Shown piece by piece: positions 17,396-35,146 of a DNA stretch of 36,615 bases. Every line of letters begins with the position of its first letter. Within the stretch, counting starts at the first letter, position 1. The stretch is from a virus: the IMG/VR virus record IMGVR_UViG_3300037137_002069, positions 1 through 36,615 of that record; one strand, written 5' to 3'. A program made the position numbers and the translations under genes. Below the pieces are notes generated by a model that was not told the origin of the DNA, searched no databases, and worked only from the letters and a program-made list of their open reading frames with translations.

Positions 17396-20300
17396 ATGGC
17401 CACCTTCAGAGATTTCCTTCTCGGGGCGAACTTCGCTCTTTGGGAGGAGTCTATCGCAGACATCTTCCAGTCAATTGAGGATCAGCGGGAAGCCACCCTC
17501 AATTCGATCTACTTATCGACAGCGCTCATCTCTGAGTTGGCTGATAGGTATGGTGCGCTCGTTGGGGCAAAGCCTGACTCGACGTGGGAGCTGGAGGTTT
17601 TCCGTGAGCATCTCCAGGAGGTAGTCCAAGCCTACCTGCTGATGTCCAGCACCAAGGCGGGTATTCAGCAAGTCGTCGCTGCTACGACACAGATTCCTCC
17701 GATCCTGCGGCCGATCAACCTCCTGCAACGTTGGCTGCTGGGATTCCAGTACCTCCCGAACCGTTTCTACCAAGACCTTGACGGCTTCGTCATGGCTGAG
17801 GTGGATGGACCCTATGAGATCACCGACGCGAACAACCTCCTCGTTCTGAGAATCAATGGGATAGAACAATCCTTCACGTTGCCTACGGGCGATGCTGTTA
17901 CGGCGAAAGAGGTGATGGACGCTATCAATTCGACCATCGTCGGTGCTCTCGCTTTCCCCTTCGGCAAACGCTTCGCCTTGGAAACGATTGAGACGGATGT
18001 CGGTGGTTCCATCCAGGTGAAGGTGGAGTCCACGGCCGATACACTTTTTGGACTCGACAATACGGAGCGTGACAACGCGCCAAATCCGGGGGGGACAGGC
18101 GTACGCCCGTTCGGATGGCGGCTTTCGGGTAGCTACATCCCAACGACTTTCGAAGACCCTATCCCCTTTGGTACTGCCTCACAGCCCATCTCTTTCGACG
18201 GCGCCATCTTTGGCACCAGCCAGGCGAAGGTTACGGGGACGATGAAGGAGCCCTTCACTGGTCTTCTATCATCCGTATTCCTCACGAACGGGGGATTTAC
18301 GAATGATTTCACGGAGTGGGACCGAACTGAAGGTCCGGATTTCTACATCTCCCTTGTGAAGTCTCACAGGGGACCAAAGTCCCTCGCCGTTGCCACGAGG
18401 ACACGGAGCATTGTGGGTGAGGATGGCTCGAAGACGATCGAGCCGGTCCTCAACACCATCAAGACCTTCCCGAAGTTTGTCCCGGAAGGCTGCACGGTGC
18501 TTGTGAAGGGGTTCCATCAGGCGAAGATACCTGGGCCGGTCTACACGAGTCCTGGGGCGCCCATGTCGGTGTACGAGTGGACGCTCTCTAACGCCGTCTT
18601 CGGCTACGTCGATCAGCAGTTCTCTAAGGACCCATTGGTCAATGATTTGCGTGCTTCAACGATCCGCTTCACCGACCCGAATGTGAACTTTATCACGAAG
18701 GGGGTTAAGGTCGGGATGGCGGTTCACGTTGTAGATAGCGGTAATGCTTTTGATGGGGTGGTCGTGGGGGTATCTACTCATGAACTTCTTCTCGACCAGT
18801 GGCGTAACGGTCCGAGTGGTGGACCGACGACTGCGCACATCAGCAATGCTGCACCAGCGCAGTCGGAAGTCACATATACCTTGACGAGTTTGCAGGACTC
18901 GTGGCTTAATTCACCGACGGATACGGTTCCCCGAAACTTTGTGGTGTTGGGGGTTCAGACAGACCCTTCCGATTTCCGCAAGCGTGATAAGGTTCGCGTG
19001 GATGAGACCCTCCGCCACTTTGGACAGATCACGACGGAGCGGCAGGTGGTGCGGGACATCGCCTCGATTTCTACGACCACGAATGCGAACGATACCCTGG
19101 ACTTGGTGTGGGGGGCTTCTCCGACGCCGCTCTCCGCGACGCTCAGTACGGAGGGGAACCCTTACTCTGTGTACATCCGTCCACCTGATGGGACACCGTA
19201 CACTATCTACCACACCCTGAATGAAATCCCTGGATTTGCTCCTGACTTCGCGAAAGTGTCAGCCGACATCGTGTATGAGATTCGCTACTTCGGATTCGAC
19301 GGGCGTGAGGTGCATTCGGAGCATCACCTTTTCCGTCCTCAGCCGGGAGACGCTTATGAGGCGTTCGTCTTCGAGACGATGACTCCTCGGGGTGGGGAGA
19401 AGGTGCAGCTTCTCATCACGGTAGGTCCTGACGAACAGATGACGGAGACGGTAGCGGCTGTTTTCGACATCGCTGTGCCTCTTTCGCAGAAGCACATCGT
19501 GCGTGACTCTGAATTGGTGGTCATTCAGGGGAATGGGATTCTCCTTGTGGGTCGTGGGGAGGCGCCGAAGTATGATTACGACATAGACTATGAAGAAGGG
19601 ACGATTATCTTCCACTCGAACGGTCCTGCGGCTACGCCGCCTTCACCGAAGTCTACTGCTGTACTCCAGTCCGCCTCGATTGTGCAGGTGCAGTATCATT
19701 TTGAGCCGAAGGCGGGAGCTGTTGTTAGCATAGACGATGTGACCTTCGAGTGTGCAGAGGCTGGTCTCAACACGGAACTCCACGTCGCGGTGGATGGGAC
19801 AATGCAGAAGGTCGTTTTCAAGAACCCGAAGGCTCGCGCTCAAGGCCTTATCACCTACTCTGGTGCGCCAGCGGACGGTGATCAAATCCTTCTTGGGAAC
19901 GAGACGTACGAATTCGATACGGGTTCGCATGACACCGGCACCATCACGTACACGGCATCCCCGGCTGAGGGGAACACAGTCACCATCGGCGGGGCGACTT
20001 ACGAGTTCACTAGCGATTGTATCGTGGCACCGGGAAACATTTTCGTCCTGCTGGTCGGCTCGGCTGATCAGACGTTCACAAACCTCACGGACATGATCAA
20101 CTTAGTCAGTAGCGAGGTCGAGGCCTCCATCAACACAGGAACGAATACGGTCACGATCACGGCAACGGACATCGGGAATCACAACCCACCAATTGATTTG
20201 AACTTCTTAGGGACGAACTACACTGTCACGCCACCTATTGGTCCCCGGTCGGGCACCCTTACGAGTATCGGTACAAGTGTTTTCGGTGAAACAAATGGTA

Positions 20301-21829
20301 TTGGAACGGTTGCGTCTGCCCCTACGGCGGCTGGATCAGGGTATGCAGTGAACGACATCCTAACTGTGACGACAGGGGGGACAGGCGGTACAGTGAAGGT
20401 GACAGTGATCGGCGGTGGGGGATCGGTTACGACAGTCGCTCTGGTCAAAGCCGGAAACGGCTATACGACTGGAGCCGGTAAAGTGACAAGTACGACGGGA
20501 GGAGGAACGGGCTGCACAATCAATATCACATCTCTTGTTAGTACTTTCTTCACTACAGAACTTTTCGTTGGTGAGTTGATCGTTGTTTCAGGACAGCAGG
20601 CACGCAGGATTGTGCAGATCATCTCTAACACACAACTCATCATTTCAACACCCTGGTCTCCCGATCTTAGTGCTTCCGTTCCGTTTGTATCTCTCGGTGG
20701 GTTGACCGGAGGGTCCTTCTCGGACGTGGTGTTGCCGCTCATCGGTGTCTTTATCACGACGGCAGACGAAACATGGGCACGTCTGGTTGAAGCGATTACC
20801 GTTCACAGTACGTCAGTCTTCGCAGAGTTTGACGCTGGGGCGAACACGGTTACGGTTCATGCGATCGAGACGGGGCTTGCTGGCAATGATGTTGTCTTCG
20901 ACACCGCAGGTGCTCCGCCGGTTGTTCTTACTCCAGCGATGGGCTTCCTCTCTGGTGGGACCGATACGCATGCGGGTGGCCATATAGAGTATACGGGGCA
21001 ACCGGCGGATGGGGAAACCGTCACGGTTGGTGGTGTGATTTACGAATTCGACAACAATGGCTTGAGTACCATAGTTCTTGATCCGCAGGCGGGTACGGTC
21101 ACAACCACAGGTGTGAACGTTGTTGGAGTGGGGACGGTGTTCACGAGTTTGTCTAACTTCAGCGTCATCGACGTGAGCGGTCAACAGCGCCAGATCATCT
21201 TCATAACGGACGACACACACCTGACGGTCGGCGCGATCTTTTCACCTGATTTGGTGGCGTCGGCGTATTCGATCGTTAATTTGGGTACGTTCGTCATCAC
21301 TATTGGTGCCACGGCTGATGCGACCTACGCCACTCTCGCGGACGCACTTGTGGTGGGTGCGGTGGTCACGGTGACGCAGGACACGGTGAATGGACGTTTG
21401 GACCTCGTAGCAGTTGTCGCAGGGACGGTAGGGAACAGTATTGTCTTTTCGGGCTCGATTACGAACGCGGCCTTGGTGCCAAGTGGCGGATTCCTTTCGG
21501 CGGCAGTCGATGGAGACTTCACGAACCCTGATGCTCCTACATGCAACGAGGTGAGCGACTTCATCAATGCCCATACGACGGGTCTGACCGCTACTTGCGA
21601 GACGGACAATCGCATCACCCTGACGAGTGATGAAACAGGACTCAAGAGCGCTATCATCATCGGTCACGGTTCTGCAAATGGCATCCTGGGCTTCGAGAGT
21701 GATAAGGGGAAGACGAACAGCGAAGCAGGCGCCAGACCCGCTTGGCGTCTCAATGTTGGTAAGGACCCTCGCGCACCTGTTGGTAAGTTGGGGATGGGCG
21801 GAGTCCTCACGACAGTCTTTACTCCGTAA
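17396..21829 (+). CDS. Large modular tail adapter/fibre protein with nested repeats
   Basis: This 1477-residue protein has a helical N-terminus (about 1-110, LFLGANFALWEESIADIF-like start) in the place where the gpI-type wedge-fibre connector is usually found. A beta-module resembling the sheath insertion occurs at about 145-225 (LLVLRINGIEQSFTLPTG). Residues about 230-780 are mixed beta-domains. Residues about 787-1445 show a nested series of modules: one module is split by a 567-codon insertion, and repeats of I-x-Y-x-x-x-PA-D/E-G (for example HIEYTGQPADGETVTVGG near 1196) occur inside it. A Gly-rich stretch with GSGYAVNDILTV lies at about 968-1045. The next gene has the same modules. The role as a tail adapter or fibre is inferred from position and modules. 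Confidence 0.7.
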   Translation: MATFRDFLLGANFALWEESIADIFQSIEDQREATLNSIYLSTALISELADRYGALVGAKPDSTWELEVFREHLQEVVQAYLLMSSTKAGIQQVVAATTQIPPILRPINLLQRWLLGFQYLPNRFYQDLDGFVMAEVDGPYEITDANNLLVLRINGIEQSFTLPTGDAVTAKEVMDAINSTIVGALAFPFGKRFALETIETDVGGSIQVKVESTADTLFGLDNTERDNAPNPGGTGVRPFGWRLSGSYIPTTFEDPIPFGTASQPISFDGAIFGTSQAKVTGTMKEPFTGLLSSVFLTNGGFTNDFTEWDRTEGPDFYISLVKSHRGPKSLAVATRTRSIVGEDGSKTIEPVLNTIKTFPKFVPEGCTVLVKGFHQAKIPGPVYTSPGAPMSVYEWTLSNAVFGYVDQQFSKDPLVNDLRASTIRFTDPNVNFITKGVKVGMAVHVVDSGNAFDGVVVGVSTHELLLDQWRNGPSGGPTTAHISNAAPAQSEVTYTLTSLQDSWLNSPTDTVPRNFVVLGVQTDPSDFRKRDKVRVDETLRHFGQITTERQVVRDIASISTTTNANDTLDLVWGASPTPLSATLSTEGNPYSVYIRPPDGTPYTIYHTLNEIPGFAPDFAKVSADIVYEIRYFGFDGREVHSEHHLFRPQPGDAYEAFVFETMTPRGGEKVQLLITVGPDEQMTETVAAVFDIAVPLSQKHIVRDSELVVIQGNGILLVGRGEAPKYDYDIDYEEGTIIFHSNGPAATPPSPKSTAVLQSASIVQVQYHFEPKAGAVVSIDDVTFECAEAGLNTELHVAVDGTMQKVVFKNPKARAQGLITYSGAPADGDQILLGNETYEFDTGSHDTGTITYTASPAEGNTVTIGGATYEFTSDCIVAPGNIFVLLVGSADQTFTNLTDMINLVSSEVEASINTGTNTVTITATDIGNHNPPIDLNFLGTNYTVTPPIGPRSGTLTSIGTSVFGETNGIGTVASAPTAAGSGYAVNDILTVTTGGTGGTVKVTVIGGGGSVTTVALVKAGNGYTTGAGKVTSTTGGGTGCTINITSLVSTFFTTELFVGELIVVSGQQARRIVQIISNTQLIISTPWSPDLSASVPFVSLGGLTGGSFSDVVLPLIGVFITTADETWARLVEAITVHSTSVFAEFDAGANTVTVHAIETGLAGNDVVFDTAGAPPVVLTPAMGFLSGGTDTHAGGHIEYTGQPADGETVTVGGVIYEFDNNGLSTIVLDPQAGTVTTTGVNVVGVGTVFTSLSNFSVIDVSGQQRQIIFITDDTHLTVGAIFSPDLVASAYSIVNLGTFVITIGATADATYATLADALVVGAVVTVTQDTVNGRLDLVAVVAGTVGNSIVFSGSITNAALVPSGGFLSAAVDGDFTNPDAPTCNEVSDFINAHTTGLTATCETDNRITLTSDETGLKSAIIIGHGSANGILGFESDKGKTNSEAGARPAWRLNVGKDPRAPVGKLGMGGVLTTVFTP
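19817..21535 (+). repeat. Nested insertion flanked by related 18-nt copies
   Basis: Inside the 1477-residue gene, 19817-19834 (FKNPKA) and 21518-21535 (FTNPDA) match at 14 of 18 bases and lie exactly 1701 nt (567 codons) apart. The segment before the first copy and the segment after the second look like the two halves of one beta-module. The material between consists of three I-x-Y-x-x-x-PA-D/E-G modules, a Gly-rich stretch and two SGQQ-containing modules. The nucleotide match is too weak to prove recent duplication. Confidence 0.5.
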
Positions 21830-21837
21830 GGAAACTG

Positions 21838-24399
21838 ATGGGACAGATCGTCGCTATATCTCGCGCATTCCAGCCTGCCAATAAGTTCTTTGGCACGGAT
21901 TGGCACGCTCGCGTTTGGGTTCGGTCCACGAACCTCACGGTGAAGGCGCACGCCATCCTCTTCTTCGAAGATGATCAAGGCGTTTCGCATCCAAACATCG
22001 AGAACAACGTCGGCACGGGAAAGTTAAGTAGCAGTGGAACGACGGTTACTGGAGCTTCTACAGTGTTCACGAGCCAGCTTCAAGAGGGCGACCTCATCCT
22101 GGCGGACGATCAAGTACGGCGTGTTGTCTCTATCACAGATGACGGTTCTCCGTTTGGGCTGGAGGTAGACGTAGCCTTTCTTCCGGCTCTCACGACCGAG
22201 GAGTTCATATTCCAGAAGTACACTATCCTCAATCCTGCGCTGGCGTCGGTTGCTGTTGAGAATGCGGTGGTCGTCCAGACGACGGCGCGAGACTTCGGCA
22301 AATTTGAGGCCGTGGATGTGAAGTTTCTCTTCAATGAGGTAGACCCGTTTGACACCATCGACATCGCCTTCCCATACCTGACGAACGAGATTGGGAAGTC
22401 CCTCAACCTGGGAGATAACACGATCCCCCGCAACAAGCAGCGGGAGTATAAGCTTTATCGGATGGCGGTCGCGAACCCTGATGTCTTTACGGGTGTTGAA
22501 GCGGGGCTCGTTGGAGCCAACGTGCGTGTAGAGGCGGAGGCGATTGCTCTTTCGGGAGTGGAGTTCACGGTGCTCGCGAACCGAAACTTGTTCCCTTTCT
22601 CGGAAGTCGTGTTTCGGTCGGGGATCAAGTCGAAGGGCACGATCCAATACATCGCCCAGCCGGCAGATGGCGACATGATCACGGTTGGTCCGCTCACCTA
22701 TGAGTTCGACTCCACTCCTGATCCTTCGACAGGCGACCCGCCCGTGTCGATTGCAACGGGAGACTACCTCGTCACTATCGGTCTGACGCCGGAGGCGACG
22801 TTCCAGAATCTGGTGGATTTGATCAATGTGACTTCCGCTGCTACGACCGCGAGTCATAACTCGATCAAGCACACAGTGACGATCCAAGCCCTGTTGCCTG
22901 GGGTGGAAGGAAACAGCATCATCTTCGCGCAGGACTGCTTGGTTGTGAAGCTCACACCGGCCATTGGGACGCTAGATGATGGTGTGGATGGGGTGGAGTA
23001 TACGCGAGGCGACGACTACATCATACGGTATGACGATGGCGAGATTGCACGGACTTCTCAAGGGGCGATCCGTGACCCATCTTCTACCGATTTGGTTGTG
23101 ACGTATTCGTATTTCCCCGGCGAGGTCCCTCTCAACACGAGTTACTCACAGACGATTAAGCCGGTCGGTGTGAAGCTGGAGATCGACCCCACATGCTTGT
23201 TCTTCTTCCGGGGTAGGAAGGCTGACTTCAATAGCCCTGACGCGATCAACATCAACTTTGAAGTTGTAGAGCGCACGCCTGACAGGTTCACCTACTTGAA
23301 GCCGAAGGTACGAGGACACTATCAGCAGGTGGTGCATTTCAGCGCTACCCTCCCACATCGAGCGACCCTCGATTATGCCGCCATGGTGGATCGGGAAGCT
23401 GTGCTCATCAAGACGACGGGGGCTGGGATCACTACGTCGATTCCCTTCGATCAGGATGGATGGACGTTTTTCTCGGAAACCGAAGTTGAATTGTCTACGG
23501 GTACGAAGTACCTGAGTCTTGGTGAGACGGCGCTGTTTGATGCGGAAGCGGAGTACGAGATCAGCTACTGCGTGAAGTTCCAATTCACTACGGCGCCGAT
23601 ACGCATTGCTGATGTGTCTTCGGCCTATGCGCTCTTGCCGTATGCGTACAAGACTCGCTTCGTAGAGGAGAAGAAGGAGGATGTAGAGCAGGTGTTGATC
23701 CTGAACACGTTGCGGCAGGCGAAGCTGAAACTGCCTGCCATTCAGGATCAGGCTCTTGCGGAATTGACGAGCGCTTTGGGTGGGGATACGGAGATACTGT
23801 CGGATGACACGTGGGGATTCGTGGATAAGAACACGGTGGAAATTTTCCTGGGGACATTCAATTTTGCCGCCATCTACACGCTGACATACAAGTCCTCGAA
23901 GCTCGTGATCACCACTGGTCCCGACTGCGAACCGATGGAGTTAGACGGTACGGAGCTTCAGGCTGGTAGTTTGTCTGTGTCCGGAACGCTTGTTGCCATC
24001 TTGACCCCTCCGCCCTCGTCCAGCTCCGGTCTTGTGGGTATGTTCGTCAGTGACACGGTGGACAACGCTGGCAGTGACAAGATCGGGTTCGATGGCTTCG
24101 TGTGGAGTTCAACATCCGACGCACAGTCGCAGACACCTCTCGCCTTCACGGCGACGGACCTTACGGTTAGATTGTCGGCGGCGCTTGCAGGAACAGAGAC
24201 GCTCACCATCACGTTCTACGTGAACGGGTCGCCGTCGGCTCTCGCGGTGACGTTCAACTCAGGCACTACGAATGTGGTAACGACCACAGGCGCGTCGGTG
24301 ACGGTTGCGGATAGTGATTTGGTTCACTTCGTCGCCACCTTGGGCGGTGGTCTGGTTTCTGCGACGGTCCGCAGTGTCGAGCTTGGATTTGAGGTATAA
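21838..24399 (+). CDS. Modular tail fibre or adapter protein
   Basis: This 853-residue protein begins 8 nt after the previous stop. Residues about 62-120 hold a capping-type module (VTGASTVFTSQLQEGDLILA, then RRVVSITDDG) also seen twice in the preceding protein. Residues about 266-380 hold an uninterrupted copy of the repeat module (TIQYIAQPADGDMITVG, then TFQNLVDLINVTSAATTA, then GVEGNSIIFAQ). The middle is mixed alpha/beta. The final 75 residues form a beta-domain (TITFYVNGSPSALAVTF, then ADSDLVHFVATLGGG) that recurs at the end of the next five large genes. A virion fibre or fibre-adapter is likely; exact role unknown. Confidence 0.65.
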   Translation: MGQIVAISRAFQPANKFFGTDWHARVWVRSTNLTVKAHAILFFEDDQGVSHPNIENNVGTGKLSSSGTTVTGASTVFTSQLQEGDLILADDQVRRVVSITDDGSPFGLEVDVAFLPALTTEEFIFQKYTILNPALASVAVENAVVVQTTARDFGKFEAVDVKFLFNEVDPFDTIDIAFPYLTNEIGKSLNLGDNTIPRNKQREYKLYRMAVANPDVFTGVEAGLVGANVRVEAEAIALSGVEFTVLANRNLFPFSEVVFRSGIKSKGTIQYIAQPADGDMITVGPLTYEFDSTPDPSTGDPPVSIATGDYLVTIGLTPEATFQNLVDLINVTSAATTASHNSIKHTVTIQALLPGVEGNSIIFAQDCLVVKLTPAIGTLDDGVDGVEYTRGDDYIIRYDDGEIARTSQGAIRDPSSTDLVVTYSYFPGEVPLNTSYSQTIKPVGVKLEIDPTCLFFFRGRKADFNSPDAININFEVVERTPDRFTYLKPKVRGHYQQVVHFSATLPHRATLDYAAMVDREAVLIKTTGAGITTSIPFDQDGWTFFSETEVELSTGTKYLSLGETALFDAEAEYEISYCVKFQFTTAPIRIADVSSAYALLPYAYKTRFVEEKKEDVEQVLILNTLRQAKLKLPAIQDQALAELTSALGGDTEILSDDTWGFVDKNTVEIFLGTFNFAAIYTLTYKSSKLVITTGPDCEPMELDGTELQAGSLSVSGTLVAILTPPPSSSSGLVGMFVSDTVDNAGSDKIGFDGFVWSSTSDAQSQTPLAFTATDLTVRLSAALAGTETLTITFYVNGSPSALAVTFNSGTTNVVTTTGASVTVADSDLVHFVATLGGGLVSATVRSVELGFEV

Positions 24400-24408
24400 G
24401 GAGTAGGC

Positions 24409-25254
24409 ATGTCATCGTTCATCACACACGCGCTGCTATATGGCTGGGGGACTGACAGCGGGAACGCGAACCTCTTTGGGAACAACACCGGGAGTAACTT
24501 CCTCACGAACGGCGACTCGTCGCCGGGATGCGACTGGAACCCGATTCCGGCCGTTCTCACCTTGGAGCGGCTGGCTATTCGGGTGTCGGCGGCCCCAGGC
24601 ACCAACTTCACTTTCCAGGCGACCAAGGGAATCCCTCGGACACCTATGGGATCAACGGTTGTACTGTTGAGTGGTCAGCAGAGTGCGGAGGGGAACATCG
24701 GAGTTACAGCGAGTCAGCCGGTAGTTGTAGGTGATCTCAGCACAGAGGCATTCGGATGGAACGGGACCTCAGCGGGCGGTAGCATAAACGGCCGTACCAT
24801 GTGGAAGTATTCGCTCGCTTCGCCCTTTGACAAGTACAACATCATCGCGTCGGGTTTCAGCAACACGGTTTTCTTCAACTCAACGGCTACAAGGTTCCTC
24901 GCGATCAACTCCCCGGTGTCTTCTTCGGTGGAGACCAGCATGCAGTCTGCAATCGTGATCCCTGGAACGTTCAAGTACCTTCTTGTCGTCATTTTGAATC
25001 AAGTTGGACTTATCGGTCCTCCTCCGACTGCTGGTGATTCGACATACACCGCTACCTTGAATATCAACGGGAGTCCAGCGATCACTATTACGGGGCTCAA
25101 TAACTCGACCTCAACGGCATTTGGGCTGAACACGACGACTTCTGCGGCGGTCGTCTCTGGAGACTTGGTGGACTTCTCGTTTACTACGTCAGGACCCTTT
25201 GACACTGATCACAGAGGGAGAGTGTACGCCGCTGTGGGCTTCTTACCGTCGTAG
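24409..25254 (+). CDS. Tail fibre-like protein A1
   Basis: This 281-residue protein has a strong ribosome binding site (AAGGAG) before the ATG. It seems to hold two copies of a beta-domain. The first is at about residues 50-130 (LTLERLAIRVSAAPGTNFTF, then ASQPVVVGDLSTEAFGW). The second is at the C-terminus (TYTATLNINGSPAITITG, then SAAVVSGDLVDFSFTTSG). Both follow the pattern found at the end of neighbouring proteins: a strand, then NGS or similar, then a GDLV turn. It is likely a receptor-binding or fibre protein. A1 is followed by B1 as A2 is by B2. Confidence 0.6.
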   Translation: MSSFITHALLYGWGTDSGNANLFGNNTGSNFLTNGDSSPGCDWNPIPAVLTLERLAIRVSAAPGTNFTFQATKGIPRTPMGSTVVLLSGQQSAEGNIGVTASQPVVVGDLSTEAFGWNGTSAGGSINGRTMWKYSLASPFDKYNIIASGFSNTVFFNSTATRFLAINSPVSSSVETSMQSAIVIPGTFKYLLVVILNQVGLIGPPPTAGDSTYTATLNINGSPAITITGLNNSTSTAFGLNTTTSAAVVSGDLVDFSFTTSGPFDTDHRGRVYAAVGFLPS

Positions 25255-25257
25255 GCT

Positions 25258-26106
25258 ATGAATGAAGTCTACGAAATCGCCCTGAGCGAAGATGGACTCG
25301 CGTATACAAACTTCGAGTCGTTCACCCCGGGCGAGGTGCGGCTCCTCGCCAACTTCGTCAAGTTCCGCGTCACCGTATTTGGGGACTTCGCGGAGGATGA
25401 TTTTCGCCTTCGCGGCTTCAGTGGGATTGTAGACGACGCGACGACCGTCGTCGGTGGATTTGGCGTCTCTCCCTTTGGTCGTTATCCCTTTGGGGATGGT
25501 GGTATCTGTCTCGAAGACAGTAGCGGCGACCTAAGCGGCAATCTGCAACTCACTGGCTTGCTCGATGTCGTATTCGCTGAGAATCTCTCTCAGTCTACTA
25601 CAGGCACCTTGGCGCTTGTCGGTACACTTGCGGCGGACGCTACCTTCTTCTCCAGTGAGAGTGGGTCGCTAGCTGCTTCGGGTAGTGTGACTACGATCCT
25701 GACCGATTTTTCGCTCGGCGTTTGGATCAGTACGAGCGGAACAGTAGGTTCAATCACAGCATCGACTTCAAACCCTTTCGTTTCTATTGCTTCCAACAAC
25801 GGTGCATTCACATCTGCTTCAAGTGCGCAAGTTCGGATGCCTTCCGGAGCTACAATTACAGCAATCTATGTGCTGTTGACGGGGAACGTTTTAGGAACCG
25901 GGGCTGCAACGTTCCATTTGAACATTAACGGAAGTACATCGAACGCATTGAACGTTGTGATACCGAGCGGTTCGTCATCGGGGAACAATACCGGGAGTGT
26001 CGCGCTTGTTGCGGATGATCTCGTCTGTATTGAGGTCACATTTACCGGCACGACAAGCACCGCGAACATTCGTGCAGTGACTATAGCATACATGGTGCCA
26101 AACTAA
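25258..26106 (+). CDS. Tail fibre-like protein B1
   Basis: This 282-residue protein starts three bases after A1. Residues 1-86 are close to the first 85 residues of the protein at 26907 (shared VKFR, FGDFAEDD, RLRGFSGI, DDAT and SPFGR-PFGDGG). Next comes a repetitive region with LSGNLQLTG, TGTLALVGTL and SGSLAASGSV. The C-terminal domain (PSGATITAIYVLLTG, then ATFHLNINGS, then ALVADDLVCIEVTFTG) belongs to the family shared by adjacent proteins. B1 and the later copy B2 are separated by A2, so this looks like a duplicated two-gene unit. A host-contact role is inferred. Confidence 0.6.
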   Translation: MNEVYEIALSEDGLAYTNFESFTPGEVRLLANFVKFRVTVFGDFAEDDFRLRGFSGIVDDATTVVGGFGVSPFGRYPFGDGGICLEDSSGDLSGNLQLTGLLDVVFAENLSQSTTGTLALVGTLAADATFFSSESGSLAASGSVTTILTDFSLGVWISTSGTVGSITASTSNPFVSIASNNGAFTSASSAQVRMPSGATITAIYVLLTGNVLGTGAATFHLNINGSTSNALNVVIPSGSSSGNNTGSVALVADDLVCIEVTFTGTTSTANIRAVTIAYMVPN

Positions 26107-26904
26107 ATGACGACTTTCGCACACTTTCGGGGGCACTCTGCAGGAGCGAATCGAGTCGCGTTGTGGGGACCTGGGCGAAGTAGTGGAACGGATATTGGAT
26201 CGCGGTTGTTTGTACCAAAGCCGACGACGCTTGGTGATGCGACTCTCCAAGGACCGAACGCTCCGGGAGCGGGGAAGACCTATACGATTCAGGCAAAGGT
26301 TTCCGGTTCACTCACCGGGCCTGTAGTGACTATCTCTCACCCGAACCTTGGGGTTCGGACAACGTTGGCGGTTTCTGTTCCGGCGATAAACACTGCTGAT
26401 CCAACCGTCAATGCGCTCGCGCAGGCTGGGACAAGTGGTGGGCCTCCTGCCGAGGCGATCTTCGCTGGATTTGCGTACACGGTGGACTCTCCAGACAACG
26501 TATTCTGCTGGGTCAATGCGCAAGACGGTTCTTCCAATCTAGGGCTCGCAGCTACTGATTTATTTGTATCCTTTGAATGGGCGGGGACATCTGGTACGGG
26601 ACAGTCAACGGTCGGATCGGCACAAGTCCCTTGGCCTGCAACAGGTACGCTCAAGTATTGCGCGGTTGCCTACGATGAGAACATTGATGGGAGTGTGGAG
26701 CTTGCCTTGAGTAAGAATGGGTCGGACACTGCGCTTATTTTTTCTCTCCCCACAACGGGGGGGACAGGAACCAAGCTCGTGAAGGATTTGACCACTAGCG
26801 TAAGTGTGACCGCTGGGGACTTGTTGGCGTGGCGGTACAAGCGTACATCTGGAGCGTCTATAATGTTTTCGGTGGGTATTATACTGGGCTTTACAAATCC
26901 GTAG
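26107..26904 (+). CDS. Tail fibre-like protein A2
   Basis: This 265-residue protein starts directly at the stop of B1 (TAA then ATG). It has two domains like those of A1, at about residues 35-140 (YTIQAKVSGSLTGPVVTI) and the C-terminus (YCAVAYDENIDGSVELALSK, then SVSVTAGDLLAWRYKRTSG). The similarity to A1 is weak in sequence but clear in layout. A role as a fibre tip or host-contact protein is inferred. Confidence 0.6.
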   Translation: MTTFAHFRGHSAGANRVALWGPGRSSGTDIGSRLFVPKPTTLGDATLQGPNAPGAGKTYTIQAKVSGSLTGPVVTISHPNLGVRTTLAVSVPAINTADPTVNALAQAGTSGGPPAEAIFAGFAYTVDSPDNVFCWVNAQDGSSNLGLAATDLFVSFEWAGTSGTGQSTVGSAQVPWPATGTLKYCAVAYDENIDGSVELALSKNGSDTALIFSLPTTGGTGTKLVKDLTTSVSVTAGDLLAWRYKRTSGASIMFSVGIILGFTNP

Positions 26905-26906
26905 TC

Positions 26907-27743
26907 ATGATTGAGCTATACGAACTTGCCTTGAGCGACGATGGCGTGACTTTCTCCGGCTTCGAACCGTTTGATCCTGGAGAGGTGCGCGATCTTGCCA
27001 AGTTTGTGAAGTTCCGCCTCACGCTGTTTGGTGACTTTGCGGAGGACGACTATCGTCTACGTGGGTTCAGCGGAATCGCGGACGATGCGACTCTCCAGGA
27101 GGGCGGGTTCGGCATTTCGCCGTTTGGACGGTTCCCCTTCGGGGATGGTGGTGTGTGCTTGGAGGGAGTAGAAGATAGCATCCAGGGTGATTTGGACTTG
27201 AGTGCATCCCTTGATATCGAGGTTACTCTGGCGGAGTCGGCGTCGTTGGGATTGAGTGGAGCGCTCGTGATGGTTGAGACTGACGTGACTCTCAAGGCAG
27301 TGTCGGGGTCGTTGGGATTGAGTGGGACGCTTGCCGTGGCAGTTATCATTTCAGAAGCGGGAACAGTTACCCTTAGTGGTGATCTCTCTACGGCAACGAC
27401 GGGGGAGAGTATGTACTCGTGGTGGAGTATACCCAATCCGCCTCTTGGTGTCGGGTCGAGGTTCTATGCAGAACGAAACGGAGCGATCACAAACATCTAC
27501 GCATGGTCGAGCGACGCTCCTCCGAACCAGGCCACCTTCAACGTATTGAAGAACGGAGCGACGATCTATACCTCCAACACGAAGCCGTCCATCTCAGGAG
27601 GTGCGACGTTGGGACCTGACACGACGCCTAACACGACGGCATTCGTGAAGGGGGACTACTTCACGATTCAGATCACATCGACGGGCGGCTTGGTGGTAGG
27701 CACCTTTGGAGTTGTTATCGAGTTCGAGTCTACTATTGCGTAA
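26907..27743 (+). CDS. Tail fibre-like protein B2
   Basis: I start this 278-residue protein at ATG 26907, two bases after the A2 stop, because the first 85 residues then align with B1 from its own start (MIELYELALSDDG against MNEVYEIALSEDG). A longer start at 26829 would overlap A2. The middle is repetitive with SLGLSGALVM and SLGLSGTLAV; at the DNA level an 18-nt identical stretch recurs at 27242-27259 and 27308-27325. The C-terminal domain (NGAITNIYAWSSDA, then ATFNVLKNGATIYTS) is very close to the whole protein at 27756-28100. It is likely part of a fibre. Confidence 0.65.
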   Translation: MIELYELALSDDGVTFSGFEPFDPGEVRDLAKFVKFRLTLFGDFAEDDYRLRGFSGIADDATLQEGGFGISPFGRFPFGDGGVCLEGVEDSIQGDLDLSASLDIEVTLAESASLGLSGALVMVETDVTLKAVSGSLGLSGTLAVAVIISEAGTVTLSGDLSTATTGESMYSWWSIPNPPLGVGSRFYAERNGAITNIYAWSSDAPPNQATFNVLKNGATIYTSNTKPSISGGATLGPDTTPNTTAFVKGDYFTIQITSTGGLVVGTFGVVIEFESTIA

Positions 27744-27755
27744 TAGAGGGATATT

Positions 27756-28100
27756 ATGGCGAGCAAGGGATCGTTTGTCTGGATGAGTCGTTGGGTGCCC
27801 GCCACGGGAGCGGGGTCGCAGTTCTACGCTGATCAGAATGGAACTATTACGAATATCTACGCTTGGGCGGCGGATGTGGCCCCAACGACTCAGGCGACCT
27901 TTGACGTGCTCAAGAACGGCGTCAGTATCTACACGTCCAACCCTAAGCCTACCGTGGCGGCCTTAGCCCAGCTTGGAGCTGACACAACTCCCAACACCAC
28001 CAGTTTCGTGAAGGGGGACTCCTTCAAAGTGGTCGTGAATTCTGTAGGGAGTATCGTAGACGGTCGTCTCGGCGTCGTCATCACCTTCACCAACCCATAG
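27756..28100 (+). CDS. Free-standing fibre C-terminal domain protein
   Basis: This 114-residue protein is essentially one copy of the C-terminal domain of the previous protein: GSQFYADQNGTITNIYAW, then TQATFDVLKNGVSIYTSN, TTPNTTSFVKGDSF, and a closing GRLGVVITFTNP. A GAGGG ribosome binding site precedes the ATG. It may be a separate tip protein or the remnant of a truncated or split fibre gene. Its last 20 codons, stop and the following AGGAG are repeated exactly at 28210-28275. Confidence 0.65.
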   Translation: MASKGSFVWMSRWVPATGAGSQFYADQNGTITNIYAWAADVAPTTQATFDVLKNGVSIYTSNPKPTVAALAQLGADTTPNTTSFVKGDSFKVVVNSVGSIVDGRLGVVITFTNP

Positions 28101-28103
28101 GAG
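28038..28103 (+). repeat. 66-bp direct repeat, copy 1
   Basis: This copy holds the last 20 codons of the 114-residue gene, its stop and AGGAG. It is identical base for base to 28210-28275, starting 172 bp later. The bases on either side differ between copies. Confidence 0.95.
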
Positions 28104-28108
28104 GATTC

Positions 28109-28204
28109 ATGTCGTGGAAACGGGGACCTTGTAGCATTTGTGGGAGTAGCGACGTGAGTTGTTGTGATGAGGGTCGAAGAGACCCTCCAAATCAGCCAAA
28201 ATAG
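28109..28204 (+). CDS. 31-residue CxxC micro-protein
   Basis: ATG at 28109 is preceded by AGGAGG at 28099-28104 (spacing four bases) and the frame ends at TAG 28202-28204. The product has CSICGSSDVSCC, so Cys at 8, 11, 18 and 19, a plausible small metal-binding knuckle. The gene lies wholly between the two copies of the 66-bp repeat and is the only coding frame I see there. Short frames can be spurious; the strong ribosome binding site is partly shared with the repeat. Confidence 0.5.
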   Translation: MSWKRGPCSICGSSDVSCCDEGRRDPPNQPK

Positions 28205-28209
28205 TTACA

Positions 28210-28275
28210 AATTCTGTAGGGAGTATCGTAGACGGTCGTCTCGGCGTCGTCATCACCTTCACCAACCCATAGGAG
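28210..28275 (+). repeat. 66-bp direct repeat, copy 2 (non-coding here)
   Basis: This copy lies in front of the 373-residue gene. It repeats the end of the 114-residue gene but has no gene of its own in front. Its closing AGGAG at 28271-28275 is eight bases from ATG 28284 and so serves as that gene's ribosome binding site. It is likely the scar of a duplication or recombination. Confidence 0.95.
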
Positions 28276-28283
28276 ATTGATCA

Positions 28284-29405
28284 ATGGCAGTAACAGTCGG
28301 TAGTCAGGGGTCGCAGGTTGGCAATGCAGCAACCACCTTTAGAAGTACCCTTCAAACACTGCTGCTCGCGGCTGGGTGGACTGAGATGCCCTACGTTGGG
28401 GGCGGCAGCCCTGTCACTGCGGCCACTGCCGGCACTGACGGCACTGTACGTGTGTACTACAGTTCCAGTACAACAGTCGCGACCAACGTGTATACGGGTC
28501 AGATCATCATGATCGAGGCGCTGGATACCACGGGCGCGACGGCGTTCGCTACCAACACGGCGGGTAACAACAACCGGACAGGACCGGCTGTTCGAATTCG
28601 AATCTGTGAGGTGTACGACGACGCGGCGACTGGCACTCCGGCAAACAAAGTGAAGTATGCCGCTCAGGGGATTTCGGCAGCGAGCGTTTCTCAGACCCCC
28701 AATGCCAACAACGCGAGATCAGACTCTTTTGGACCGATCTTTACAGTGACCGATACGATTACGAGCACGACTCCCTCTGTGGGGTGGGTTCATCTCCAAC
28801 TTTCAGAGTCTGGATTTGGCTACTGGATAGGAGCGGACGCGACTCGGTTACTGGCGTCGGTGAACTCCAACGGCGGAATGATGGCTCTGTGCGGGAAAGT
28901 TGAAACTCTTCTCGCTACCGGAGATACAGTTTCTGTGTATCTCGCGGGCAATAGCGTCTCGACAGCCGCGACCACTCAGGCGTGTTCGTGGCTTATTGGC
29001 ACCGGGACATGGGGGGGTGTGCGTTGGTCCCGTGAGCCGTTGATAACTGCCTCCACAACAGGGGCATTCGTCGGTCACATCTATGGTCACTTGTCCCAAG
29101 TTGATGTTACGGCCACCAACGCGGTGCTGGGTAAAATAGGAACAACCCACAAGTACCACACCACGCAAGTCGCGCATCCAGCGTTCTTGCATGGGATTGC
29201 GTCCACTACGAGTATTGGTGCGTCGTTACGGTCGTATCGAGCGAAACTGAACGGCTTCGTTGTAGGATGGGGCAATGCGAATGCAACGATAGGTGACACG
29301 TTGACGATTGGTGGGGTTGCGTATATCATTGTCGGCAGCACGGAGTTCCCCGGTGCCTCATCGTTTGAGTGTCTTCTTGCCGTCCATCCGACATCGGTGT
29401 TCTAA
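28284..29405 (+). CDS. Large tail protein, receptor-binding candidate
   Basis: This 373-residue protein is not recognised by name. Its ribosome binding site comes from the second copy of the 66-bp repeat. Residues about 1-35 contain a helix (STLQTLLLAAGWTEMPYVG). The rest is Thr/Ser/Ala-rich and beta-rich, with VGWVHLQLSESGFGYWIGAD, then WGGVRWSREPLI and a closing AYIIVGSTEFPGASSFECLL. The pattern is known in phage tail and capsid surface proteins that bind to host structures. Its stop overlaps the next start (TAATG). Confidence 0.6.
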   Translation: MAVTVGSQGSQVGNAATTFRSTLQTLLLAAGWTEMPYVGGGSPVTAATAGTDGTVRVYYSSSTTVATNVYTGQIIMIEALDTTGATAFATNTAGNNNRTGPAVRIRICEVYDDAATGTPANKVKYAAQGISAASVSQTPNANNARSDSFGPIFTVTDTITSTTPSVGWVHLQLSESGFGYWIGADATRLLASVNSNGGMMALCGKVETLLATGDTVSVYLAGNSVSTAATTQACSWLIGTGTWGGVRWSREPLITASTTGAFVGHIYGHLSQVDVTATNAVLGKIGTTHKYHTTQVAHPAFLHGIASTTSIGASLRSYRAKLNGFVVGWGNANATIGDTLTIGGVAYIIVGSTEFPGASSFECLLAVHPTSVF

Positions 29406-29584
29406 TGGCTGATACAGCAGCAGTAGCGTTTTTGGCGACCGATCATTACGGAGACCCCTCCAACCAGGGTCCGGCCGACGCGACCGAGGTAACGGCGGTG
29501 TCTTTCAACGTTGTGTTGGTAAACGATGACGCCGAACCCAACGTCGCAGGTCCCCACGGTGTGTGGGGCGTCGTAAAAGGATAA
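29405..29584 (+). CDS. 59-residue protein between tail genes, function unknown
   Basis: I start this gene at ATG 29405 inside the preceding TAA, giving 59 residues (MADTAAVAFLATDHYGDPSN at the start). An in-frame ATG at 29369 would overlap the preceding gene by 37 bases and has no good ribosome binding site. The sequence is acidic and beta-like (VTAVSFNVVLVNDDAEPN) with no known motif. It may be a small subunit of the neighbouring fibre proteins. Confidence 0.55.
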   Translation: MADTAAVAFLATDHYGDPSNQGPADATEVTAVSFNVVLVNDDAEPNVAGPHGVWGVVKG

Positions 29585-29593
29585 GGAGGAAGC

Positions 29594-31846
29594 ATGGAAC
29601 GGACGCTTTACACAGATGGGGTTGAGGTAGACGCAAGCGACCTCACCAACACGGAGGACACCAAGGTTGAGGAGATTCTTCTCACTCGCCAGGTGACGAC
29701 GCGCTACGGCGTCATTGATGGGCTCGGTTGCTCGACCAGTGGCAATCGGATCACTGTGGACACGGGGCGCCTCCTGTTCCGTAATGGCGAGGTGGCGGTC
29801 CTCACTTCCCCCATCATCAACATTGTGGGGGCCTCCTTCGAGGGAGGGGTCAGCACCTTCGTTGGTCTGCGCTTGGGGGAAGTCACTTCCAACCCGAAGC
29901 CTCACGAGGTGGACCCAACCATCTTCGACACCCGCGCAACGCCGAAGATTACTGCGGAGTTGTTTGTTGCCTCCGACCCTAGTACTGCGGCGAGAGCTAG
30001 GGCGCTCCAGGCGGCTATCGACGCGGAGTTGAACGACGCCAACTTCGTCCTCCTGTCCGAATTCGCGGGCGTGGGCAATGGACTCACCCGTGTGACGGTA
30101 ACGCCACAGCCTCGCAGTAAGGGCGGCGACGATCCATTCCGCTCTCCCTCGAAGACCAAGAATCAGAAGACGGCCCTCGTGTCGATATACCTCGACAACA
30201 CGAATGATCAATTCCCTGTCGCGTCAGCCGAAGATCATTTCCACCGCAGTCTCATTGGTTCGGGCATCCCGAACCCTCAGAACGCGCACGGCACGACTCT
30301 GACGGACATTGGTGGAGACGCAATACTGGATCAGGCCATCACGAAGCACCAGCGTGAATTCCACGCGAATGGCATCATTGGTTTGGAGTCTTTGGAGGAT
30401 GAGTTCGCGGAGACGAACTTCTCGTCTGGCTCTTTCGCTTGGGGTATCGACCAGACTTCGAGCGCCGTCACGGTTCATGATCTTCTCAACGTAGATGATG
30501 GGGTGCCTCAGGATGAGGTACTGGTCATTCAGGGTAAGGAGTTGAAGAAGGGGCAATCGAATACTATCCCGGACGGAGACAAGGCGCCACGGATCAGTTT
30601 TGCGAGCGTTACCGTGCCGGGTCTCTACTACATCTTCGCGCGATGGGGTTCAAATGAAGCAGGCGGGATGCCCGTCTTCGACAAAATGTTCAAGGATGAC
30701 TTTGACCTTTTATGTGTGGACAGTGATGGAAAGAAGGCCTGGTTGAACAACGCCGTTGATCCCACTGTGGTCGATGTCGCCATTGGTCCGGAGCGGAAGT
30801 TCTACGTCATCGGTCTCGTCCAGTGGAATGGATCGAGTGCTTTCACGAACCTCGCCACGAACCCGATGATCACCATTCCAGGACCGAGCGGCGATCTGCT
30901 CTACAAGACGGGTCTTCCGGCAGGACATCCGTTCCAGATACCCATCAACAAGAAGGTTCTTGACCTTCGACGCTTCGGGAGTGTGACGAACGAGACAGTG
31001 CAGAAGCGGACGATCCGCCTTGACCGCCTCACGCAAGTTTTGGTTACGGAAGACGACTTCATCGTCCATTCGGGCACCCGTATCGTTAGCGGATCGCCTG
31101 TAATGGCGCTTGTCAACTCAAATAACCATGCGACGCCTGGTCCAGACAACTCGATCCTTAAACATCTCACTGACTTCGATGCGGATCGCCTCTTCGGTCA
31201 TAGGCCGGCAATTGGTACATCGGAGCACGGCCGCTCGCAGCACAGTGGGGGTCTTGATGGCTCCTTCATCCCCCTTGATGAGGAAGCGGTCAACTCGGGG
31301 TTTCAGTCCGCTGCGGATAAGTGGCGTCAAACCTTCTTGACCATGACGTTGATGAAATGGGCAGACCTCCAGACTGTGCAAGGCGCGGCCGGTGACACGC
31401 TTGCGATGGGCGACGCGGCGGCGGTATCCACTCGCGACGCACTCGCTGGTGGCGCAGGATCATACATTGTTTATCGGCGCGGCGAATTGCGTAACTTTGG
31501 GGCGAATGTTCACCATCGTCCTGCTAACCTTGGGCCGCCGCACACACTCTCGATCTCTTTCGTCGTCTTTTCCATAAGCGGTGCCGCCCCCTCAACGCTT
31601 GTGACAAATGCCCAAGAATGGTCCACCCTCACTGTGGACGATCAACTCCCAGCGCTGGGGTTCGTGTCTGATGCTTCGATCGTCAGTCGGTCATGCACCA
31701 ATATCGTAGATGTCCTGACGATTGAAGCTACTCCGGCTGCCCCGAAGTTGATTTCTTGTGTGCGAACCAAGAATTCAGCCGCCGATACGGGAGCCAATGT
31801 GTGGAAAGACCTCACGGTTACGGCTGAATTCCACTACACGTCGTAG
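29594..31846 (+). CDS. Tail fibre protein
   Basis: This 750-residue protein follows a strong AAGGAGG site. The N-terminal part (LTRQVTTRYGVIDGLGCS, then VDTGRLLFRNGEVAVL) is typical of proteins that attach fibres to baseplates. Near residue 225 is NPQNAHGTTLTDIGG, then KHQREFHANGIIG, a His-containing fibre motif also seen in Mu-like fibres (N-P-H-G type). A central region has beta-domains and ends with FITLATNPMITIPGPSG-like sequence. The C-terminal 150 residues have Ser/Thr-rich beta-domains, including NFGANVHHRPANLGPPHTLS. The lysis gene follows within three bases. Confidence 0.7.
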   Translation: MERTLYTDGVEVDASDLTNTEDTKVEEILLTRQVTTRYGVIDGLGCSTSGNRITVDTGRLLFRNGEVAVLTSPIINIVGASFEGGVSTFVGLRLGEVTSNPKPHEVDPTIFDTRATPKITAELFVASDPSTAARARALQAAIDAELNDANFVLLSEFAGVGNGLTRVTVTPQPRSKGGDDPFRSPSKTKNQKTALVSIYLDNTNDQFPVASAEDHFHRSLIGSGIPNPQNAHGTTLTDIGGDAILDQAITKHQREFHANGIIGLESLEDEFAETNFSSGSFAWGIDQTSSAVTVHDLLNVDDGVPQDEVLVIQGKELKKGQSNTIPDGDKAPRISFASVTVPGLYYIFARWGSNEAGGMPVFDKMFKDDFDLLCVDSDGKKAWLNNAVDPTVVDVAIGPERKFYVIGLVQWNGSSAFTNLATNPMITIPGPSGDLLYKTGLPAGHPFQIPINKKVLDLRRFGSVTNETVQKRTIRLDRLTQVLVTEDDFIVHSGTRIVSGSPVMALVNSNNHATPGPDNSILKHLTDFDADRLFGHRPAIGTSEHGRSQHSGGLDGSFIPLDEEAVNSGFQSAADKWRQTFLTMTLMKWADLQTVQGAAGDTLAMGDAAAVSTRDALAGGAGSYIVYRRGELRNFGANVHHRPANLGPPHTLSISFVVFSISGAAPSTLVTNAQEWSTLTVDDQLPALGFVSDASIVSRSCTNIVDVLTIEATPAAPKLISCVRTKNSAADTGANVWKDLTVTAEFHYTS

Positions 31847-31848
31847 TC

Positions 31849-32307
31849 ATGCTGACGAAGACGCCGAATGGGCTCCCGGAGATTATCCAGACCTTCGGGG
31901 ACATCCATGACCCACAGTTCGAGGCGAAGAACATCGTCTCCTTCGACTTCCCCTACCCGATCCGGTATGAAGGCGTGCCAAAGACTCGCTCGCGCTGTCA
32001 CAAGTTGCTCGTGGAGAACTTCATCGCCGTGTTCAAGGACATCCAGGCGGCTGGACTCGTGGACCCATGGGGGAATGACTACTCGGGTATCTACGCGGTC
32101 CGTCCGATACGGGGCTACCCGCAGTTTCCAAGCCTACACAGTTTTGGAATAGCTATCGACTTTGAAGCCGCTGACAACCCTCTCGGGAAAAAAGGGCACA
32201 TGCACCCTGGGGTGATTGCCTGCTTCAAGCAGCATGGGTTTTTTTGGGGTGGGGATTTCGTCCATCGTCTCGATCCGATGCACTATCAGATGGCGACAGG
32301 GTATTAG
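31849..32307 (+). CDS. Endolysin: M15-family peptidase
   Basis: This 152-residue enzyme should cut peptide bonds in peptidoglycan (L-Ala-D-Glu or D-Ala-D-Ala-type peptidase). Zinc ligands are visible: His97 and Asp104 in SLHSFGIAIDFEA, and His145 in RLDPMHYQM, with Asp142 as the probable catalytic acid. There is no signal peptide, membrane helix or separate cell wall-binding domain, so export is expected to need a holin. Length and motif order match single-domain phage M15 enzymes. Ribosome binding is weak, and the gene follows the fibre gene by two bases, so translation may be coupled. Confidence 0.9.
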   Translation: MLTKTPNGLPEIIQTFGDIHDPQFEAKNIVSFDFPYPIRYEGVPKTRSRCHKLLVENFIAVFKDIQAAGLVDPWGNDYSGIYAVRPIRGYPQFPSLHSFGIAIDFEAADNPLGKKGHMHPGVIACFKQHGFFWGGDFVHRLDPMHYQMATGY

Positions 32308-32327
32308 CTGGGCCGAGAGGGGTAGAC

Positions 32328-32492
32328 ATGAAGAAGAACATTTTCCTGACGAACATCCTCCAGTCGGTCGCCATCGCGCTCATCTTGGGCGTACTTGGCG
32401 GTCTCTGGAAGACGTATCTTGACGTTCATGACTTGCAGACTAAAGTGGAATGGTTGTACTCGTACCAATTCCCTGCGAGGGGTGGAAAATGA
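32328..32492 (+). CDS. Small one-helix membrane protein, possible holin
   Basis: This 54-residue protein starts at ATG 32328 after a GAGAGGGG site. The sequence MKKNIFLTNILQSVAIALIL, continuing as GVLGGLWKTYLD, has a positive N-terminus, one hydrophobic segment (residues about 8-27) and a short polar tail. Its location directly downstream of the endolysin and its size fit a holin-like or spanin-like lysis protein. One helix alone is not specific, so this remains a suggestion. Its stop overlaps the next start (ATGA). Confidence 0.6.
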   Translation: MKKNIFLTNILQSVAIALILGVLGGLWKTYLDVHDLQTKVEWLYSYQFPARGGK

Positions 32493-32929
32493 GTCTGGGA
32501 GGCATGTCTCACGGGAGCAGTGCCGGCTTTGAAGGGATCATCTCCCACAACAACACCAACCCCATCACCCCCATCACCCCCACGTATTTTTGGTGCCTAG
32601 TGCATGGCACGTACTCATGTTGGTGCTTGTCGGGATGTACGAACGGGACAACTATCAGCGTCAACACTTGGACGTGCGCGCAATGTGGGCTGGTTTGCCT
32701 TATGGGCACGTATCACTTCTGCACGACTACGGCCCCTGGCACCGTCCGGTGGGTAAATCCAGCAGGCAATCAGACGATCAGCTTCCCCCTCCCCGAGTGT
32801 GCCTTTTGCGACAAGCTACTGGAGTCCGACGACAAGAAAGTGTGCAAGGAGTGCCGGGGTGTCTTTGAGGCTTGGAAATTTTTGTCCAAGAGGGATGAGT
32901 CAGAGCCTGACAAGGAGCCTGAGGGGTGA
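32489..32929 (+). CDS. Cysteine-rich zinc-ribbon-like protein
   Basis: This 146-residue protein starts at ATG 32489, overlapping the stop of the preceding gene. A start at 32450 would overlap it much further and has no better site. It is rich in Cys: WCLVHGTYSCWCLSGC, WTCAQCGLVC, CAFCDKLLESDDKKVCKEC. The last two groups are two CxxC pairs about 13 residues apart, the usual layout of a small zinc ribbon. The N-terminal half is Thr/Pro-rich with several Cys that could form another metal site. Target and role are unknown; it may bind nucleic acid or be a host-directed factor. Confidence 0.7.
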   Translation: MSLGGMSHGSSAGFEGIISHNNTNPITPITPTYFWCLVHGTYSCWCLSGCTNGTTISVNTWTCAQCGLVCLMGTYHFCTTTAPGTVRWVNPAGNQTISFPLPECAFCDKLLESDDKKVCKECRGVFEAWKFLSKRDESEPDKEPEG

Positions 32930-33315
32930 AGATCGCTATTGTCGGCAGCGGTAGGCTAGCTGGCTCGAAGGCTGCCCGAGAGATAATACGCAAAACTCTG
33001 AGCCAGTTCCGCCCATCGGCGGTGCTCCTCTTCCCAGGGCACGACAGCTTTAATGCCCTCGTCCGCGCACAGGCAGCCTCGCTGGGGCTCGTTGTGGAGG
33101 CGATGCAGCCTCCTAGACCCTTCTGGGTCGGTGCGTGCCTCCCAAGCATCCGCAAGCGGCTTGCTCGTGGACTCTACGCTAGGGCTATCGCCAAGGATGT
33201 TGATTTGGTCCTCGCGATCAACGCGGAGGGACACGGGGGTGCCTCGTATTCACAATTACTTGAGGCTGTCGAAGAGGCAGTGGTTGTGACCCTCAGACCT
33301 TGCGACGAAGCGTAG
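32926..33315 (+). CDS. SLOG-like Rossmann-fold protein
   Basis: This 129-residue protein starts at GTG 32926, overlapping the preceding stop (GTGA). The sequence begins MKIAIVGSGRLAGSKAAREI, a beta-strand plus glycine turn typical of nucleotide-binding SLOG/YspA-type folds. It is followed by AVLLFPGHDSFNALVRAQAA, then LGLVVEAMQP, RLARGLYARAIAKDVDLVLA and a final GASYSQLLEAVEE. Such proteins bind nucleotides or nucleotide-derived ligands; several phages carry them with no known function. It is the last gene on the plus strand and its 3' end overlaps that of thyX by 23 bp. Confidence 0.6.
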   Translation: MKIAIVGSGRLAGSKAAREIIRKTLSQFRPSAVLLFPGHDSFNALVRAQAASLGLVVEAMQPPRPFWVGACLPSIRKRLARGLYARAIAKDVDLVLAINAEGHGGASYSQLLEAVEEAVVVTLRPCDEA

Positions 33316-34081
33316 CTTTCCACCAGCCCAGCCCGTCATCCTGTTCTTCACGAACGAAGTCCTGGTAGATATTCGGGTAATCGGTGGATACGATCCGCCC
33401 CACCTCGTCAAACACCATCCTGATCTCGATCTCTGCCGCGGGGTCTGTTCGTTGCTCTAGGACGTGACGGAGGTTCCGGTGGTTCGTTGTCCACACGATA
33501 TTAGTCGCGATGCCGTCCGGGATGATCCGTCGTAGGGCCGATGTCGCCGCCTTCTTCTGCGGCATGGTCATGTGTTCCCAATCGAACGTTCCTTCCAGCT
33601 TCTTGTAGTGTGCTTCCGTGTCCCTCGCAGCACACTCTACGACGCTCCGCTGTTCCTCAGTGAGTTCATCCGGTAGCCACATCCCGATATCTGTGACGCG
33701 CACGTAGCGCATCGACTCCTGGCTGATTGCGACGCCGACTCGGTGTCGCACAAGCTCGTGGGTGAAGATGCGGCTCACTTTGAGGAAGGCGAAGGTGAGG
33801 GAGGCGTGCTCAAAGATCGAGCCATCGCCTTTCGATAGGGTATTGGCGAGGTATTCCGCCGAGTCGGTCCGCACCTTGGTGAGGTTCGGATTGACACCGA
33901 TGCCGTATGAACGATAGCAGAGGCGCCCGGCTATTTCCGTGAGGGCCTCAGAGTCGTTACCATCCATCACGTTTTGCATGTGCGGCGTATTGCCGTTCAG
34001 CACGTTGAGCATGGACGTGACGGCGAGGAGGTCTATCGACGTTTCTGCGATTTTGAAGACTTTCGGCTTGGTTGCGTGCAT
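33293..34081 (-). CDS. thyX: Flavin-dependent thymidylate synthase ThyX
   Basis: ThyX makes dTMP from dUMP with methylenetetrahydrofolate, FAD and NADPH, supporting phage DNA synthesis. The 262-residue product starts at ATG 34081 (complement), with AAAAGGAGA at 34089-34097 seven bases upstream; the frame remains open to 34174 but lacks a good site there. The key motif is VRHRVGVAISQESMRYV (RHR at residues 112-114, Ser-Gln-Glu-Ser at 120-123), matching the ThyX RHR...S...RY signature. An upstream segment GSIFEHASLTFAF (88-100) is typical. The C-terminal part has AEIEIRMVFDEVGRIV. Its stop overlaps the SLOG-like gene on the other strand. Confidence 0.93.
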   Translation of the reverse strand: MHATKPKVFKIAETSIDLLAVTSMLNVLNGNTPHMQNVMDGNDSEALTEIAGRLCYRSYGIGVNPNLTKVRTDSAEYLANTLSKGDGSIFEHASLTFAFLKVSRIFTHELVRHRVGVAISQESMRYVRVTDIGMWLPDELTEEQRSVVECAARDTEAHYKKLEGTFDWEHMTMPQKKAATSALRRIIPDGIATNIVWTTNHRNLRHVLEQRTDPAAEIEIRMVFDEVGRIVSTDYPNIYQDFVREEQDDGLGWWKATLRRKV

Positions 34082-35145: not shown

Positions 35146-35146
35146 G

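Follow-up and report, generated by a model that had tools for sequence, protein, structure and literature searches.

In a 36.6-kb record of an uncultured virus (IMG/VR record IMGVR_UViG_3300037137_002069, positions 1 to 36,615; this whole stretch of 36,615 nucleotides is hereafter called the window), which carries contractile-tail genes, six successive genes encode proteins ending in a common C-terminal domain (hereafter, the head), which structural models predict to be a C1q/TNF-like jelly roll. The interpretation we favour, with a probability of roughly 0.6, is that these genes, named here by their start positions, encode tail-fibre or baseplate-tip proteins whose heads act as interchangeable tips for receptor binding and have multiplied through duplication. 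A receptor-binding tip family that grew by duplication had been proposed from the DNA alone (the original prediction); the analysis supported a domain held in common, the duplication of that domain and the presence of a head-type fold at the end of tail proteins, and receptor binding is suggested by the fold, the position of the genes and their relatives. The six open reading frames (ORFs) begin where they had been placed, and all of the motifs cited for them were found in the encoded proteins. The array comprises the following features.

21838-24399, plus strand: 853-aa tail/baseplate protein with a conserved body, an appended shaft repeat and a C-terminal head (about 24079-24396)
24409-25254, plus strand: 281-aa protein with a C-terminal head (about 24916-25251)
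25258-26106, plus strand: 282-aa protein with a dock (25258-25515), a shaft of repeats of about 20 aa (25516-25749) and a head (about 25768-26100)
26107-26904, plus strand: 265-aa protein with a C-terminal head (26554-26901)
26907-27743, plus strand: 278-aa paralogue of 25258 with a dock (26907-27164), a shaft (27165-27407) and a 27756-type head (27408-27740)
27756-28100, plus strand: 114-aa gene product, the head domain alone
28197-28275, plus strand: truncated copy (79 nt) of the 3' end of 27756, a direct repeat 92% identical to 28025-28103 and including the stop codon and a Shine-Dalgarno (SD) sequence
28284-29405, plus strand: 373-aa protein, a probable tail accessory protein

The start of 26907 is an internal ATG of a longer ORF (26829-27743) and was picked because it aligned with the start of 25258. 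The head-only gene 27756 has its own SD-like sequence (upstream gagggatatt).

A common head domain in two sequence groups

That the six genes have a C-terminal domain in common is supported by pairwise scores, leave-out profiles, a bridging sequence and two structure models. Smith-Waterman scores were expressed as Z values against 300 composition-preserving shuffles, with the C-termini of nine other window proteins as controls. The 28 domain-domain pairs gave a mean Z of 3.9 (maximum, 48), compared with -0.1 (maximum, 1.75) for the 72 domain-control pairs and a maximum of 2.4 for the 36 control-control pairs. The highest scores were those between the C-termini of 26907 and 27756 (Z 48), 21838 and 25258 (9.0), 21838 and 24409 (5.9), 24409 and 26107 (5.5), and 25258 and 26107 (4.7). 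Moreover, when profile hidden Markov models (HMMs) were built without the tested protein and compared with 1800 shuffled decoys, the C-termini of 25258, 24409 (expectation value, E, 9e-4), 26107 (E 2e-4), 26907 and 27756 outscored all decoys; that of 21838, which scores Z 9 to the head of 25258, was borderline (E 0.012 versus 0.008 for the best decoy).

The copies split into two groups, the first consisting of 21838, 24409, 25258 and 26107 and the second of 26907 and 27756. Shuffle tests and profiles tie the members of each group together, and the sequence link between the groups is weak. A between-group hhalign comparison gave P 0.011 and was colinear across 83 columns. The groups are bridged by the C-terminus of gp210 of Mycobacterium phage Tonenili, a Bixzunavirus minor tail protein (phrog_2952): decoys scored as high in 0 of 1000 cases for the second group, 1 of 1000 for the first and 0 of 1000 for the joint profile. 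In a joint alignment with relatives, the columns that never vary are the N-G pair and the D in the GDL turn, in agreement with the predicted plan of a strand, an NGS-type motif and a GDLV-type turn.

Additional N-terminal copies of the head in 24409 (about 24526-24858) and in 26107 were hinted at by some pairwise scores (Z 2.4-4.0) and not by profiles (leave-out E 0.2 and 11, respectively), and are not claimed.

Predicted fold of the head

The AlphaFold2 model of the 25258 head, made from a construct of 118 residues, has seven strands and, from residue 31 to residue 118, a predicted local distance difference test (pLDDT) score of about 90. Its neighbours in the PDB are 4-1BBL, EDA-A1, C1q-like proteins (C1QL), ExsFA, BclA, the Pgp3 C-terminal domains and a fibre of phage 7-7-1. 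Against BFVD, the best matches of this model reach template modelling (TM) scores of 0.6-0.7 with a root mean square deviation of 1.5-2.4 Å, and the top ones are mainly tail fibres and collagen-containing phage and giant-virus proteins. The model of 27756 is weaker (pLDDT 72.5), with TM 0.63-0.74 for its ten best matches, and retrieves many of the same proteins; collagen proteins from Klosneuvirus and one from Caudovirales rank highest for both. As monomers, the two models point to the same fold. Searches of PDB sequences with the head profiles returned nothing significant.

Several points weigh against the favoured interpretation. The PDB TM-scores of the 25258 head are only about 0.5 (E 3e-3), and none of the heads matches Pfam C1q (PF00386) or TNF (PF00229) at E values up to 1; because no Pfam profile matches, the heads are labelled C1q/TNF-like by fold and not as members of these families. 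The sequence link from group to group is marginal (Z 3.3; HMM E 0.0057 versus 0.038 for the best decoy); the C-terminus of Tonenili gp210 and the structure models connect the groups more firmly. The AlphaFold2 models, one member per group, retrieve many common BFVD proteins, including Tonenili gp210 itself, but each structure-prediction alignment held members of both groups, so that the models are not fully independent. Finally, C1q/TNF-like heads can also serve in assembly or decoration.

Modular architecture and duplication of the heads

The full-length paralogues 25258 and 26907 are 73% identical over residues 1-86 (the dock) and 45% identical in the repeat shaft, and their heads are far apart. 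The head of 26907 is nearer to the stand-alone 27756 (57% identity in protein, 58% in DNA) than to that of 25258, which, together with its shaft, is closest to the C-terminal end of 21838. By these comparisons, head kinship departs from dock kinship, as would be expected if heads have moved between docks or been duplicated separately. Synonymous divergence (dS) between the copies is saturated, which places the duplications too far back for selection to be tested.

The truncated copy at 28197-28275, which was absent from the original prediction, matches residues 88-114 of 27756 at 85% identity and lies after a 31-codon ORF (28109-28204) and before 28284. It is best read as the leftover of a further head gene, and its duplication as more recent than those of the other heads, whose dS is saturated. 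The 31-codon ORF, which separates the remnant from the intact 27756, has a strong SD sequence and encodes a cysteine-rich peptide, MSWKRGPCSICGSSDVSCCDEGRRDPPNQPK; it may code for a small protein that binds zinc or be a mini-gene inserted there.

No support was found for a target of a diversity-generating retroelement: between the two copies of the one long repeat that is nearly identical (28025/28197), the differences are transitions and are not confined to A. No reverse transcriptase was found among the genes scanned, several genes lying outside the scan and the record being a fragment.

At the shaft-head border of 26907, an in-frame ATG (27411) follows closely on the sequence GGGGGAG, and its SD energy ranks it among the best 4% of ATG/GTG codons at internal positions. 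This arrangement is only suggestive of a head-only product of 26907, which would resemble 27756.

Gene order in related phages

The array is set in the tail/baseplate region, with the baseplate J gene upstream and, downstream, 29594, which has homologues in related phages, and an M15 peptidase gene. This tail module is common to large phages, namely Virus Rctr197k and the IMG/VR contigs L012-L020 (44-192 kb), which were located via the J protein. In Rctr197k, a gene matching 17396 of the window is followed directly, 9 bp apart, by the 29594 homologue. In L014-L016, an ORF at 12402-16034 matches residues 462-691 of 21838 (phmmer E 1e-8), the match stopping short of the C-terminal head, and the 29594 homologue follows after about 260 bp. 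L013 has two unrelated genes in the interval before it. The head profile found nothing significant in the examined stretches of these relatives, including between the flanking genes. As heads are undetected in the related phages, the array from 24409 to 29405 is taken to be accessory. In 21838, a shaft and head appear to have been added to a conserved protein. The slot that precedes the 29594 homologue is occupied in L013 (16113-18205) by one membrane-protein-like and one HNH-like ORF in place of head genes, and it may be a hotspot for insertions.

Direct homologue searches returned nothing in phages (with 27756, 25258, 26107, 21838, 24409 and 28284) or in viral contigs (with 27756, 21838, 25258 plus 26907, and 28284 plus L022), and searches of genome contigs gave no homologues; no close relatives of the array were found in these three kinds of collection. 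The only near relative of the head that we found is in L022 (IMGVR_UViG_3300036852_000461, 7824-8291; contig of 55.8 kb), where a 155-aa protein combines a coiled coil, a collagen-like GxY repeat and a head 42% identical in sequence. This gene lies directly 3' of a minor tail protein gene (phrog_837) and 5' of a distant relative of 28284 (L022:8707-9768; Z 5.6, 26% identity). L022 resembles the window in having the head followed by a 28284 relative and differs in its single head copy and its coiled-coil and collagen-like stalk; its tail genes encode a tape measure, a major tail and a minor tail protein, with no sheath identified in the 15.7 kb examined. The pairing of a head with a 28284-type gene in two tails that differ in other respects suggests that the two move as a cassette.

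Possible functions of the heads

Under the favoured interpretation of exchangeable receptor-binding tips, the docks would be the points at which different short proteins join the baseplate or a fibre, the shafts would hold the heads outward, and the heads would trimerise at the tip and contact host-surface receptors. The phage would have multiplied and diversified its heads by duplication, recombination and loss, giving several body types: dock, shaft and head in 25258 and 26907, a conserved tail protein with an added head in 21838, other bodies in 24409 and 26107, and the head alone in 27756. The last may add extra heads to the tip of 26907, be an adhesin held by another protein or be a spare cassette. 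The collagen-like stretch of L022 provides indirect support, by analogy, for head trimers.

C1q/TNF-like heads on phage fibres are a known kind of part, usually described singly. Phage C1q-like proteins have been proposed to bind receptors, and their heads vary most in natural populations (PMC3909814); those of pelagiphages (marine phages) resemble the window proteins in having a head-type domain near tail fibre genes and a head more variable than the N-terminus, whereas the window heads differ in having no Pfam C1q match. In the myocyanophage Pam3, a TNF-like domain of the fibre gp24 was assigned to receptor recognition (PMC9608196). This fibre, likened here by description only, is trimeric with a TNF-like domain and an N-terminal dock to the baseplate, but continues into a glycine-rich tip. 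C1q domains are also found on the fibres of extracellular contractile injection systems (PMC12923769). Tonenili gp210 has a C-terminus matching both head-group profiles and both models, on a different body encoded upstream, rather than downstream, of baseplate J. Tonenili-type heads occupy 243 places in 239 actinophage records, one per record in nearly all, so that one per phage is usual at the sensitivity of a single query, which would miss diverged paralogues such as those in the window. Six head genes in succession, one of them a head alone, with a decaying copy beside them, are an uncommon arrangement in the relatives seen, head arrays not having been surveyed systematically.

The run of diverged heads, the head-only gene and the decayed copy would together be a record of a phage accumulating and recombining host-binding tips. 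We tentatively raise the further possibility, itself rather unlikely, of a combinatorial set of tips on one tail, in which several heads on distinct docks, together with 27756, form mixed trimers or extra head layers with several receptor specificities. Possibly, the set would also include the head-only product from ATG 27411. The array offers a compact test set for the holding of several specificities by one tail.

Of the rival explanations, an unlikely one is that the C-terminal domains serve short fibres as caps for trimerisation or folding, with receptor specificity elsewhere. C1q/TNF-like domains oligomerise in many proteins, and in the L022 protein the head accompanies a collagen-like stretch, for which a nucleus of trimer formation would be required; however, the head-alone 27756 has nothing to cap, and the conserved docks and diverged heads of 25258 and 26907 are the reverse of what a purely structural cap predicts. 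It is improbable that 27756 and the remnant form a recombination reservoir of spare head cassettes, copyable into 26907 and not themselves virion proteins. The 57% identity of 27756 to the head of 26907, the nearly identical 79-nt tail copy with its stop codon and SD sequence, and the departure of head from dock relationships would suit a reservoir, whereas 27756 is intact, with its own SD sequence and an in-frame start, and its DNA identity of only 58% to the 26907 head indicates that no conversion took place recently and is on the low side for homologous recombination. Equally improbable is a role of the heads in general carbohydrate binding or decoration (as domains that are Ig-like, or like carbohydrate-binding modules), helping nonspecific adhesion to cells or surfaces and not specific receptor binding, since C1q/TNF-like proteins, proteins with collagen and tail fibres head the matches in both libraries and the genes lie among baseplate and fibre genes, despite CBM35 structures among the PDB matches and the fit of several copies on different bodies to an avidity role.

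Other features of the window

None of the six array proteins had a solid match in Pfam or PHROGs, an Rfam scan of 21000-36615 gave no match, and promoter and terminator scans did no better than shuffles. As the record is a fragment, further heads may lie beyond its ends. Outside the array, the following genes were assigned.

61-1782: tail sheath (phrog_2839, E 1e-14)
15355-16806: baseplate wedge (baseplate J; phrog_6, E 5e-36; Pfam Baseplate_J)
31849: M15-type peptidase/endolysin
35147-36613, minus strand: DNA helicase (phrog_2373, E 3e-51)

The proteins of 17396 and 21838 have a common repeated domain of the type G.I.Y...P.dGD.VTIGg.tYEF... (19805-21529 and 22612-23008), present in several copies in the former and about one in the latter. 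The minus-strand helicase gene marks where the plus-strand block of tail genes ends.
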